From positions 9,572-56,500 of the forward strand of contig QKYT01000033.1 of assembly GCA_003550305.1 (NCBI GenBank): a stretch of 46,929 nt of DNA, given 5' to 3'. Below the pieces are notes generated by a model, which worked only from the letters and a program-made list of their open reading frames with translations, did not search any database and was not told where the DNA came from. Of the stretch, positions 35,149 through 40,588 are shown one piece after another; position 1 is the stretch's first letter, and every line of letters starts with the position of its first letter. Position numbers and translations under genes: made by a program. The stretch is from Glomus cerebriforme (lineage: Eukaryota > Glomeromycota > Glomeromycetes > Glomerales > Glomeraceae).

Positions 35149-38100
35149 ATGTTTAATGATATTAAGTTTTTACTTGGAATTCTTGTATGTTTTTCATTAT
35201 TTAAAACAAATAATGCGCAACAATATCGTTCATTGGATGGAACAAACAATAATTTAAACGTTCCTAATGCTGGTGCTGTCGGTGCTGTATATTTAAATTA
35301 CAAAAATGCAATTGAATTGTTTGCGGATTCAACAACAGCATCAATGTTATCTTGTCCTCATAATTATCAAGCTGTTACATTACCTGTAGTTGACAAATGT
35401 GTTGATATATTACCAGAAGGAACTTTCCCATTGCCAAGATGTTTGAGTGATTTAGGTGATGGGGTTCAAGCAACACGAGCACAACAGTTTAATGAAACTT
35501 TTGTTAATAATCACAAATCAAAAAGGAAGTCTTCACATATGGTGAGTCAATTCGCTCATGTCACGTGGTTAAGCAAAAAATTTTTTTACTAAATAATGAT
35601 AAAATTTTTTTAAGATGACATTTTGGGCAGACTTCATAACATTTGATATAACATTTAGCCAAGAAACTGAAATTCTCAATGATGCAATATTAATACCTAG
35701 TGATGATGTTACTTATCTTTCAGAAGGATCAACTCAGATTAGTCAGGTAATTTAAAATTTTGTTAACTTTTTGTTTGAAATAGAACAAGAAATTCGAGTT
35801 TGATTTAGGTTAAAATTTTAAAATTTAGACAACCTTACCATTTAGTCGATCCTATAATATATCATCTCGTGGAACAGTAAATTTGGCATCAGCATATGTT
35901 GATGGTTCTAACATATATGGAGTTGATGAAACACGGTTAAACGAAATACTTAGAGATCCAATTAATAGGTGTAAAATGCGATTAACATATGGCGAATCGG
36001 GTGATAGTGCTCTAGGTTACCTTCCAAAAGGTAGACAAAACTTTTTTTTTTCTTTCAGATAAAAAATTTTTTTTACATATATATTTTAATTCTACTATTA
36101 GATGCCAATGGTAATTACATACATGGACAAGAAACCATTCGTGGATCAAATATTTTCGTTGATATGATTATTACAGTTTTTTTACGTGAACATAATAGAA
36201 GATGTGACAATTTGACTAGTATATACGGTGATAAATGGGATGATGAAACTTATTTTCAAGAAGCGAGAAAATGGACTATAGCATTAATTCAAAAGATAAA
36301 TTATCTAGAATATTGTAAGTTTATCTTATACGTTAATTTTTTTTATTTACTCAGTTATAAATATGTATATGTATATATATATTAAAAATTCTTTTGAAAA
36401 ATATATAGTGAGTATTCTTATGGGATCTCCTTTGCTCGAATTCACTCAATACGATCCAAGCTTGACAGCAGGAATTGATTTTATATTTATCACATCGACA
36501 ATGCGTTATGGTCATAGTGAAACTAGGTAATCATGCAATTATTATTTGTTAGATTATCATCGGTAATTTATTAATTTTAATTATATATTTAAAAATTAAG
36601 TGATAATTTTAATATTGTGAATCAAAACGGAGAAATAATAACTTCCATACCATTAAACCAAGTAAAAACACAAGTGGAGGTATTTGGTGTTCCAACTATT
36701 GCTACATCGATCGCATTACAAAGGTAACCTATTTATTTAAAATGCCTAGATTCCACAATCAATCAAGTGTGTTTAAACAGATATTATTTGATAATAGACA
36801 AGAAGAAATTGATATTTTTTATTCGGATTACGCGCGAAATTTGCAAACAACACCTAATGGACCAATCATTGATTTGGCAAGGTAATTATTATACAATAAA
36901 TTGTTATCAAGTAAAATAAGTAAAATAGTAAAATACAAATTTTAACGAAAATTATTTCCTTAGCATTGATCATCTTCGTGTACGTGACCGAGGGGTTCCA
37001 TCTTATAATGATGTTAGGGAATTGTATGGATTCCCAAGAGCAACAGATTTTAGTGATATTACTGCAAATGTTGAAATCCAAGGACGGTTGAAAAGCCTTT
37101 ACTCAAGTATAGATAAAGTTGAAGCATATATAGGTGGATTAGCCGAAGATCATTATAACAATTCAAATTTCGGTCCATTATTTCAAAAAAGTATGCAAGA
37201 ACAATGGCAGTTAATACGCGATGCTGATAGATTTTGGTTTGAATCACCGGATGCAGGATTTACTAAACAAGAAATTGAAGAAATAAGAAATACAACGTTT
37301 CGAGACGTAATTCTCCGTAATTCACCAAATGATACAAAACTTCCAGATAATATATGGTTTGTTCAACCAAGAAATGATCTCTCCTCTATAAACTCCAATG
37401 CTAATAATGATGTGGATGCTGATGGGTATTTAAAAGAAAATACCTTCCAAATTTCCCAAATATATAATATAAAATGGAAAATTATTGACTCTGATATTTA
37501 TTTTAAAATGAGGCTTGAGAGTGATAATGCTTGGTTTGGATTAGGTTTTAACCCAGAAGATGATGGTATGAGGGGAGCTGATTTCTTAATTGTAAATAGC
37601 CAAGGTAATGATATTCAAGTTGGAAATTATAGATCGAATGGATATCAACCTCCTATTATTGCAGCAAGACAATTTGTTGAAAAAATAAGTGCCAACATCA
37701 GTTCAGGATTTATGGAAGTTCAAGTGAAAAGACCTTTAAATGCTCCAGAAAGGGTTCCCATAAAAAATGATACAACTTCACGTATGTAAATAAGGAATAA
37801 TTTTTTTTTTAAAAAATAAATAAATATATATATATATTTATTAAAGATTTATATATTTATATTTTAGTTATTTTTGCATGGAATCCAAACTCAAATGCAT
37901 TATCGTATCACGGAGGAAATCGTGGTAAAGCAAAGATCAATTTTTTTCAATCTGGCATTTCAACTTCATCAACAAGTAATAGACTCGCCTTGTTAGCGCA
38001 CGGAATATGGATGTTCGCGGTAAATAAAATAATATAGTAATAGTCTTTGTTTATTCTTTGAATCAATTTTAATTTTAATTTTCTTTTCTCAAATATAATG

Positions 38101-40588
38101 ATAATAGACTTGGAGGTTCGTTAATTTAAATATCTTAATGTTATTTGTTCATATAATTTTTTTTTACTAATTAAATTCATTTAAATTTTACTTAACAGTA
38201 TTATATTCCCAAGTAAGTTCCCTTTTTCATTTTGACATTTAATTTTATTGACACTAAATTTAACCTATTTCGGTTAAATGTTTTATTTGTTAGTTTCAAT
38301 CATCATTGTACGTTATATGAAGCATAAAGTTCATCACTTAAATCAGCATAAGAATCTCCAAATCATCGGAGGCGTTGGGGTGGCTACTTTTGGCACTTCG
38401 GCCCTTGCGGTTGCTCAAGAACAAAGTAGAACACCACACAAATTGTATGTTATAAAAAGCAATTTCTTAACTATTAGCACGGTATCTTGTGATAAATTTT
38501 AAAAGTTTTTTTTGTTTCCGTGTAGCGTTGGAATACTCATATATACAGGAATATTTTTACAACTTGGATTGGGATTATTGTCACTTTGGGCACGATCTTC
38601 TCTTGTATCGTCAAATCATGGTATATTTAAATCGATTAAAGTTGCACATTTTCTTCTAGGAGCTGCGTTGATGTTGAGTGCAGCTTTTAACATATATCTT
38701 GGAATTGATGCTTATGGTCAATCGGAAATGTGGAAACTCGTATATTTTGGATGGGTTGGTATGTAATAATGAAATATCATTGTGATCATTAATTTATTAT
38801 TATAAAATTCTAACCCATTTTTTTTTAATAACAAAATAGGCTTATTATGTGTTATAGTTATAGGATTGGAAATTTGGCATATATACAATCGAAAGAAAAA
38901 TTTAATTGATTCGGATACGAATGTTTTGGAAGGTGGTGTTAAAGGAAGAATTAGAAAACATCTCGATAATATCGATAAAAATTTAGTTAATGATTTGCCA
39001 GATGTTACATGGAATGAAGTATACCAAAGAGTTATACAGGGAGCAAAATTAGTAGTAGCGGAAGATCTTTTATTTGATATAAGGAGATGGATTAATGTAC
39101 ATCCAGGAGGATCACAAGTATTAAAACATGTGATTGGAACAGATATTACAAATGATTTTTTCAAAGATCTGCAACCCAATAAAAACGAACAAAATCCATT
39201 GATATTACAAAAAAGTAAAAGAAATGAAGGAATAATAGAAAGACCTCAACTTTCAGATAGTGGTGGAATAATTAATTATCTGGAAAGATTAAATAGAAAA
39301 TACATTGGAAATAATCCAGGACATCATCATTCAAGGTTTGCCACAGCAACATTAGCTAGTATGGTAATAGGAAAAATGATAAATTCAGAAAATTCAAGAA
39401 ATGATGATGAATTTAAAAGATATATTCTTGTTGCCGTAAAGTCTGTTACGGTAGGAAATCCTGTATGTCCTGTTAAAAGATTTATTTTTAGAGATCCAAG
39501 TGAAAGAAAGTTACCAGAATTTAAGCCAGGAGACTATTTTGAGGTTTTTAGTTATACTCAAGGTCAGTCTGTAGTTCGTCCTTACACTATACTTAAAGTT
39601 GATGATGAAAAATATAAGAATATGAATTGTTTTTCGATCATCGTAAAAATTTACAAATATGGGGCTATGTCAAGACATTTGGTAAGTTATTTTGAATTTA
39701 CACGTTTTTTTTTTTAAAAAAAAAAATCGCAATTTTTTTTTTTAATTATATATATCGACATATTATGTAGGATCGTTTATTAGAAGGATTCACGGTTAAA
39801 ATGCGTGGACCAATCAGCATTAATGGGCATATTGGACAATTACAAAGACCATCTATGCGAAGAGCACTATCAATGATCTCAGTTTATTCTGAACCGGAAG
39901 ATAAGAGTTCTTTATTAAATCCTGATTCAAATGATGGATGTTGGGATATCTTATTCATGATATGTGGAGGAACGGGTATAACTCCAATGATACAATTGGT
40001 AATTGTGAAAAAATTAAAAAAAAACTTACTTTAATTCAATTGTTACCTTTTAATCTAACTTCATATATATTTTTTTAGATTGAATACCATATTGAAAAGG
40101 GTAAACGAAGAAATATTAAATTGTTCTTGTTATTTGCAAATAATTCGGAATCAGATATTATATTATATCCGAATGGTCTAAACGAGTTAATGAGTCGAAG
40201 TGATGGTAAATTACAAATATCATTTGCTTTATCACATCCACCTTCTGGATGGTCACATTATCAAAGACTTAATTATGATGTTATATTTGATTGGATGTCG
40301 AAAAATTACATACCAAATGATAACGACAACATTACAATAATACAGTCTTCAATAATGAATGGACAAACGTCTTTTTCATCAACTTTAAACACAGGAATAT
40401 CTTCTACTAAACAACCCGAGCAACAAAATCAGTCAATCTATGAACCAACAAAATATATTGAAGCTTTAAAAAATGATCCCGTTGCACTTAAAGTAATGGT
40501 TTGTGGTCCTCATCCGATGATATTATCCGTTAGTAATGTACTTAATAAATTAAATTTTCCTGAGGACAAAGTTATAATTATAAATTAA
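35149..40588 (+). CDS. Secreted peroxidase-homology / DOMON / cytochrome b561 / cytochrome b5 / FAD-NAD reductase fusion
   Basis: Sixteen exons join in phase to 1406 residues: 35149-35541, 35615-35746, 35829-36030, 36102-36314, 36419-36536, 36601-36723, 36798-36881, 36964-37781, 37868-38019, 38108-38115, 38199-38212, 38294-38444, 38526-38758, 38840-39681, 39771-39998 and 40079-40588.

Domains in order: signal peptide (1-24). Animal-type haem peroxidase (about 30-520) with VDGSNIYG 199-206, FLREHNR 269-275, MRYGHSE 345-351, RVRDRGVPSYN 427-437 and DRFWFE. DOMON (about 580-725; Met624, His709 candidate haem ligands). Cytochrome b561 with five helices (about 735-895; His739, 771, 801, 844). Cytochrome b5 (HPGG 968-971, HHHS 1042-1045). 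Ferredoxin-reductase-type FAD domain (RPYT 1127-1130, GAMSRHL 1155-1161) and NAD domain (GGTGITPM 1227-1234, CGPHPM 1379-1384).

The distal peroxidase His is Phe141, so classical peroxidase activity is doubtful. Electron flow from the cytosol outward is inferred from domain order. Confidence 0.92.
38108..38212 (+). other. Two consecutive microexons (8 and 14 nt) in the first b561 helix
   Basis: Exon 10 (ACTTGGAG, 38108-38115) and exon 11 (38199-38212) are needed to restore HGIWMFATWSIIFPISIIIVRY, the expected HG-x-x-M-x-x-A/T-W start of a DOMON-linked b561 domain. Both have proper AG and GT borders, and the phases (2 then 1) fit their neighbours. Without them the frame breaks, which supports the model. 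Confidence 0.85.

Follow-up and report, generated by a model that had tools for sequence, protein, structure and literature searches.

In a 46,929-nucleotide stretch of the Glomus cerebriforme genome (contig QKYT01000033.1, positions 9,572 to 56,500 of the forward strand; hereafter the window), we found a 16-exon gene whose product appears to hold a complete transmembrane electron-transfer chain in one polypeptide of 1406 amino acids. From N to C terminus the protein carries a peroxidase-type domain, a DOMON domain, a five-helix cytochrome b561, a cytochrome b5, a flavin adenine dinucleotide (FAD) domain and a nicotinamide adenine dinucleotide (NAD) domain. With slightly better than even confidence we read it as a plasma-membrane protein that exports electrons drawn from NAD(P)H, for which metal ions would be the most likely acceptor and whose outer domain would not be a peroxidase. 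The basis lies in the sequence, namely the domain order in one frame, the conserved ligand and cofactor residues, the loss of the distal histidine with the proximal histidine and asparagine kept, and five hydrophobic segments; haem binding, the direction of flow, the location and the acceptor are inferred. The species belongs to the Glomeraceae and, judging from its group, we take it to be an arbuscular mycorrhizal (AM) fungus. The gene and the exons that bear on its unity are:

35149..40588, + strand: whole gene, 16 exons, 1406-residue protein; one frame, GT-AG introns of 71-94 nucleotides, full-length relatives 67% identical
35149..35217, + strand: putative signal peptide, residues 1-23; hydrophobic N terminus, judged by eye and not by a signal-peptide program
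36964..37781, + strand: exon 8, one uninterrupted exon; last part of the peroxidase domain together with the bulk of DOMON
37868..38019, + strand: exon 9, one uninterrupted exon; end of DOMON and start of b561 helix 1
38108..38115, + strand: micro-exon 10, 8 nucleotides; best of 5 in-frame splice paths against Rhizophagus clarus, absent from the public model
38199..38212, + strand: micro-exon 11, 14 nucleotides; on the same best-scoring splice path as micro-exon 10 and likewise absent from the public model
38840..39681, + strand: exon 14, one uninterrupted exon; bulk of the last b561 helix, b5, and the bulk of FAD

The first-pass annotation, made from the letters alone, had joined all six modules in one in-phase frame of 16 exons, and this was confirmed by the position of the junctions and by a full-length relative in R. 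clarus. Since the junctions fall inside exons 8, 9 and 14, they cannot be separated by the choice of exons. The R. clarus relative (P0001) is a single protein with 67% identity across 100% of the query, and by domain the identity is 80% in the peroxidase part, 67% in DOMON, 77% in b561, 63% in b5, 59% in FAD and 56% in NAD, with a short linker poorly kept (5/18, 28%). Our gene model, exon 7 in particular, was set by the relatives P0001, P0002 and P0076, the last being the public model of the same gene, which is named heme peroxidase, has 750 amino acids and is identical to our protein over residues 1-745. The structure model of P0076 has a helix at residues 2-21, which bears on the signal peptide.

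This public model raises the question of whether the locus makes two products, the peroxidase-DOMON part being made alone by retention of intron 9 and the downstream half being separate or dead. Its C terminus, ...GIWMFAVNKII, is an exact read-through of intron 9, as such a reading would have it, but the product would finish with an incomplete b561 helix, and the downstream coding sequence is open across 2013 nucleotides with the ligand residues and the 56-77% domain identity to R. clarus kept (the linker apart). The micro-exons, moreover, bring back the conserved b561 helix. With the flanking sites fixed and at most 2 inserted exons of at most 60 nucleotides and introns of at least 40 nucleotides allowed, enumeration of 38020-38293 gave 32 GT-AG paths, of which 5 were in frame without a stop, and the pair of 8 and 14 nucleotides was the best of them against the R. 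clarus peptide TWSVLFPI (score 42, next 22). We rejected two genes because of the exon-internal junctions and the conserved open downstream half, and regard two products as highly improbable. Given these junctions, the micro-exon path, the full-length R. clarus protein and the conserved downstream half, we think that the window holds one gene encoding one protein and that the P0076 model is wrong, while a short product through intron retention is possible. Public models of this family can end early or lose b561 helix 1 at the micro-exons (38020-38037 in the window); P0076 stops there and P0002 of Rhizophagus irregularis skips the helix.

The electron-transfer core consists of the following features, for which domain searches were run on the 1406-residue protein:

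37457..37944, + strand: DOMON domain, residues 587-720, with candidate haem ligands Met624 and His709
37996..38877, + strand: cytochrome b561 core, five helices at residues 738-893 with His739, His771, His801 and His844; from domain search and the modelled relative P0068
39007..39384, + strand: cytochrome b5 domain (PF00173) with an inserted loop, His968 (HPGG) and His1042/His1044 (HxHS)
39472..39815, + strand: FAD domain (PF00970) with RPYT and GAMS motifs; Arg in 55/55 and Gly in 54/54 rows
39957..40540, + strand: NAD(P)-binding domain with GGTGITPM and CGPHPM

The domain architecture proposed at first pass was borne out by Pfam, with matches that include PF03098, PF00173 and PF00970. Conservation was read from a residue alignment of the window protein with 58 Glomeromycotina relatives (P0001-P0049 and P0067-P0075), 17 other family members and 7 other peroxidases; P0076 was excluded as the same gene, and counts refer to rows with a residue at the column. 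The DOMON domain, which has both the methionine and the histidine, directly precedes the five-helix b561 with its four histidines. Among Glomeromycotina the DOMON methionine is kept in 56/56 rows and the histidine in 51/52, and the four b561 histidines in 46/46, 47/48, 50/50 and 42/43; in the 17 other members the b561 columns stand at 17/17, 15/15, 17/17 and 17/17. The b5 histidines are equally constant, His968 in 56/56 and His1044 (the second His of HxHS) in 58/58 Glomeromycotina rows, with 15/15 and 15/16 in the other members. The second axial ligand is probably His1044, its identity being qualified by the inserted loop that lengthens the spacing. The His-His spacing is presumably longer than usual owing to this loop; the gap between the two candidate histidines (39103-39330) is 77 residues here, 60-95 in P0001-P0005 of Glomeromycotina, 137 in P0065 and 92 in P0089, and it is shorter in ochrophytes (34-39) and in P0087 (36). 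The reductase part shows the FAD motifs RxYT and GxxS and the NAD motif GGTGxTP, and its sequence match is of the cytochrome b5 reductase type. NCBIfam profiles run on three relatives gave only reductase matches, far below cut-offs.

Structural comparison agrees with this layout. The modelled relative P0068 has five long helices and a fold match to 4o6y, and the b5 reductase fold was also seen, in a list of fold matches that was mostly filled by the reductase part. The DOMON-b561 piece had no phmmer match among solved sequences, though the fold comparison of P0068 did match. In Glomeromycotina, then, conservation extends over the residues of the whole electron path but not to the peroxide-cleaving site described below, which is gone; outside Glomeromycotina the DOMON histidine is doubtful.

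These features suggest a topology in which the signal peptide, the five helices and the reductase tail would place the peroxidase and DOMON domains outside and the b5, FAD and NAD domains inside the cell, the two ends lying on opposite sides of the membrane because the number of hydrophobic segments is odd. Electrons would pass from NAD(P)H through FAD and b5 to the inner b561 haem (His771/His844), then to the outer b561 haem (His739/His801) and on to the DOMON haem (Met624/His709), the pairing of the b561 histidines being read from helix order. The final acceptor outside would be metal ions, for example ferric or cupric, at moderate confidence. A parallel is found in CYBDOM (plant HYP1), whose DOMON with Met and His and five-helix b561 with four His resemble ours; HYP1 is described as drawing on ascorbate to reduce ferric and cupric substrates (PMC10784544). 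The window protein differs in having a peroxidase domain in front and b5 and b5 reductase behind, where plant HYP1 uses ascorbate; the fused reductase on the cytosolic side would take the place of cytosolic ascorbate and suggests NAD(P)H rather than ascorbate as donor.

The outer domain carries the following features:

35224..37354, + strand: peroxidase-homology domain, residues 26-552; full PF03098 match
35639..35644, + strand: distal site in degenerate form, with Thr140-Phe141 replacing Asp-His; distal His in 0/47 Glomeromycotina rows
36513..36515, + strand: proximal His349, kept; 52/52 Glomeromycotina rows
37007..37009, + strand: Asn437 at the proximal-Asn position, kept; 56/56 Glomeromycotina rows

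The domain matches PF03098 at 1e-85 over profile positions 1-529 of 530, and the nearest solved sequence is peroxinectin A of Dictyostelium (6erc, 2e-49). The names of peroxidase and b5 positions are those that we take to apply from known enzymes, read against the aligned active peroxidases. At the distal-His column the 47 Glomeromycotina rows hold Phe (24), Met (14), Tyr (5), Ser (2), Leu (1) and Ala (1), and no acidic residue stands at the haem-ester Asp position in any of the 47 rows with a residue there. Arg256 is at most one column away from the Arg that active peroxidases have, and its column holds Arg in 26/52 rows; neither the distal-Arg position nor that of the ester-type Glu is fixable by alignment. 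In the 17 other family members the distal His is found in 3/13 rows and the proximal His in 4/14. As the distal His is lost, a working peroxidase was rejected and the outer domain is predicted not to act as one, as in DUOX. It probably still holds haem through His349, because the proximal His and Asn are kept in Glomeromycotina, unlike human DUOX1, which is described as being without the haem-ligand His in the passages available (PMC7794343). That Glomeromycotina have lost the distal His and yet keep the proximal one is a new observation. The probable role of the domain is in docking, regulation or the binding of a small ligand.

An alternative would make this domain the terminal catalyst, its His349-held haem being reduced by DOMON and binding O2 or a small ligand in a pocket without distal His, so that it would work as an oxidase or oxygenase driven by electrons instead of peroxide. 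The invariance of the proximal His and Asn, despite the absence of the distal His from every row, is unexpected for a mere scaffold, and the prevalence of Phe, Met or Tyr at the distal position also speaks for it; but the haem is only predicted, the ester position lacks an acidic residue in Glomeromycotina, and the proximal His is also lost in most ochrophyte rows. We hold this alternative to be quite improbable.

Another alternative, and the main rival to metal reduction as a role, is the production of reactive oxygen species (ROS). The same chain would reduce O2 outside to superoxide or H2O2 for signalling or wall chemistry, with the peroxidase-homology domain shaping product release as in DUOX. 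The plan of the protein does recall DUOX in its N-terminal peroxidase-homology domain without distal His, and the proximal His kept here is also present in both aligned DUOX rows (Ciona and Biomphalaria). The core, on the other hand, is b561 with DOMON and b5 and not NOX, with a reductase of the cytochrome b5 reductase type; the NOX core PF01794 with FAD_binding_8 had no match in the window protein at E up to 0.1, and no EF-hand for calcium control was matched by Pfam between the peroxidase part and the core. Besides, the outermost core haem would lie in DOMON with two candidate protein ligands, so that O2 could be reduced at the haem edge only, and HYP1, a DOMON-b561 protein that has been characterised, acts as a metal reductase. 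Lacking the NOX core, the protein was rejected as a NOX/DUOX member; on its sequence it resembles DUOX in plan, and a role as a functional DUOX analogue seems unlikely. The first-pass description of a DUOX-like device on a b561/b5-reductase core is partly supported.

Several points weigh against the metal-reducing exporter that we favour. The public model of the gene stops in b561 helix 1. The metal acceptor is a guess from the CYBDOM kin, for which O2 or the haem of the peroxidase domain could stand instead, and R. irregularis also has orthologues of FRE metalloreductases, according to the passages available (PMC4196481), so that another metal reductase is not required. The proximal His kept in Glomeromycotina argues that the outer domain is more than a scaffold, and this His is lost in the brown algal rows other than P0081. 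The DOMON His is present in only 4/16 rows of the 17 other family members, where the alignment is uncertain (the Met is in 17/17), and the DOMON haem may not be universal across the family. Lastly, some relatives have imperfect motifs: in NAD the first Gly is conserved in 48/55 Glomeromycotina rows, and P0001 and P0002 read C-R-GTG.

The protein was also compared with further systems. With the peroxidase-cyclooxygenase superfamily (peroxinectin A, lactoperoxidase and bacterial peroxidases) it shares the whole-domain PF03098 match and the proximal His, and differs in the replaced distal His and ester-type Asp and in the fused electron-transfer chain. Ppo/linoleate diol synthases, which join peroxidase and P450, likewise have a fungal PF03098 domain, but no P450 domain was matched by Pfam in the window protein and this identity was rejected. 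Animal-type heme peroxidases of Mucoromycota with a P450 architecture, one of R. irregularis among them, are mentioned in PMC10629195 and differ from ours. The FRE ferric reductases with DOMON of Naegleria and oomycetes also put an outer DOMON on a transmembrane reductase; their core is a ferric reductase domain and not b561, and the passages available mention no peroxidase domain for them (PMC3591440).

The first protein search gave at least 66 proteins, of which P0001-P0049 are from Glomeromycotina, often several per species, and a search with the core alignment (E up to 1e-20) added P0067-P0076. This second search scores only candidates that share most words, and P0051 and P0065, which are partly in the alignment, were not listed by it, so that absence from it means little. 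The Glomeromycotina members are spread over 11 genera (Rhizophagus, Glomus, Funneliformis, Gigaspora, Cetraspora, Dentiscutata, Scutellospora, Racocetra, Diversispora, Acaulospora and Entrophospora). A further search beyond Glomeromycotina gave 17 rows, including the query P0051 itself, and these relatives were partly run through Pfam. The chytrid Borealophlyctis (P0087) has peroxidase, DOMON, b5, FAD and NAD all above the Pfam cut-off. The same module order is found in Tribonema (P0077, P0079), Chrysoparadoxa (P0080), the brown alga Discosporangium (P0081) and the blastoclad Sorochytrium (P0089), with NAD below cut-off in P0077 and P0080, and DOMON and NAD in P0089. Two further brown algae, Pylaiella (P0085) and Ascophyllum (P0083), show FAD below cut-off or not at all, and the Ascophyllum protein also has DOMON and NAD under the cut-off. 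Incomplete members are a green alga (P0090) with peroxidase, DOMON and b561 and without b5 and FAD, and an Ectocarpus model (P0088) with only peroxidase and DOMON, the latter just under cut-off. The core without a peroxidase match is found in P0065 (chytrid Quaeritorhiza) and P0078 (Tribonema); because their neighbours in the core tree, Sorochytrium (100/100) and P0079 (99/98) respectively, carry the domain, its absence is likely due to loss or short gene models. Automatic gene models make up much of the set of relatives, and several are marked partial; P0087, which comes from cDNA, is without the proximal-Asn stretch, and P0079 matches PF03098 in pieces. SH3-like matches below the Pfam cut-off were seen in the reductase part of P0065 (934-983, after FAD) and P0089 (1239-1280, between FAD and NAD).

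A restriction to Glomeromycotina or Mucoromycota, which the first-pass annotation had raised as a question, does not hold: the architecture, with some modules below cut-off, is also present in a chytrid, a blastoclad, a xanthophyte, Chrysoparadoxa and brown algae, and a Glomeromycotina-only restriction was rejected. The same annotation knew of no described protein with this order, and none was found among the top-ranked results of a search of open-licence papers. Family proteins are already in public databases, where those that are named are often called only 'heme peroxidase'. As far as this literature search reaches the architecture is undescribed, and its spread is wider than was first thought. 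For a prokaryotic or viral source of the core, the core-alignment scan confirmed no relative in genome contigs (150 pattern matches) or in IMG/VR (38), distant ones being possible.

In the peroxidase-domain tree, one branch splits 28 family rows, among them P0088 and P0090 of incomplete architecture, from 8 other peroxidases that include two animal DUOX, which thus fall with the outgroup and apart from this family. Its support of 94/92 (92% of 200 bootstrap trees) is moderate, being under the star threshold of treekit. The core tree, which contains two long rows (P0090 and P0087), places Glomeromycotina and ochrophytes each on one side of a branch (100/99). The distal His is present in P0087 (chytrid), P0081 (brown alga) and P0079 (Tribonema), and its state changes at least 4 times on the tree, gains and losses counted alike and one change being that of DUOX; for this count P0091 was dropped as misaligned and rows gapped at the site were uncounted. 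Because the chytrid, brown algal and Tribonema members keep it, the distal site probably disappeared more than once, and independently of its loss in DUOX. A single old fusion followed by repeated decay of the peroxidase site fits this pattern, and transfer between lineages is a possible alternative. The protein is probably an ancient equivalent of DUOX that was assembled from other modules. More tentatively, a DUOX may have been built twice. An ancient working secreted peroxidase would have joined the NAD(P)H-b5-b561-DOMON chain before the split of the fungal carriers, with parallel decay in AM fungi and brown algae, and also in animals on a core of their own. The pseudo-peroxidase would then shape the use of electrons, and in AM fungi the gene would have multiplied into a family acting at the plant interface.

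Around the gene, 8 exact copies of the palindrome TGTGCACA lie within 122 base pairs of intergenic sequence upstream (34272-34393), with none elsewhere in the window (expected 0.39); they are possibly a cluster of regulator sites or a hairpin-forming element. Further upstream on the same strand are an antiporter-like multi-helix gene recognised by eye only (about 30264-33389), whose last open frame (32721-33389) had no Pfam match, and an open frame for a PHO4 phosphate transporter (28686-29522, 1e-30). The minus strand carries a Sel1-repeat protein (26446-27603, 1e-28) and an RNase H domain (11322-12122, 7e-7) that is probably part of a retroelement. A run of N at about 13050-13625, an assembly gap, is read as X in open frames. 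Rfam and transfer RNA scans of the window gave no match, and tblastn with six family proteins found no further copy of the family within it.

If this reading is true, AM fungi and brown algae would have, in one polypeptide and without a NOX core, a complete chain that conducts electrons from NAD(P)H out of the cell, and AM fungi would gain a candidate family of enzymes that reduce iron or copper or produce ROS at the root interface. The function of the DUOX peroxidase domain is described as obscure in the passages available (PMC4420034), and this family would offer an independent evolutionary replicate of the puzzle of why a peroxidase domain stays after its catalytic site is lost. As members with and without the distal His occur in one family, the puzzle would become testable by direct comparison.

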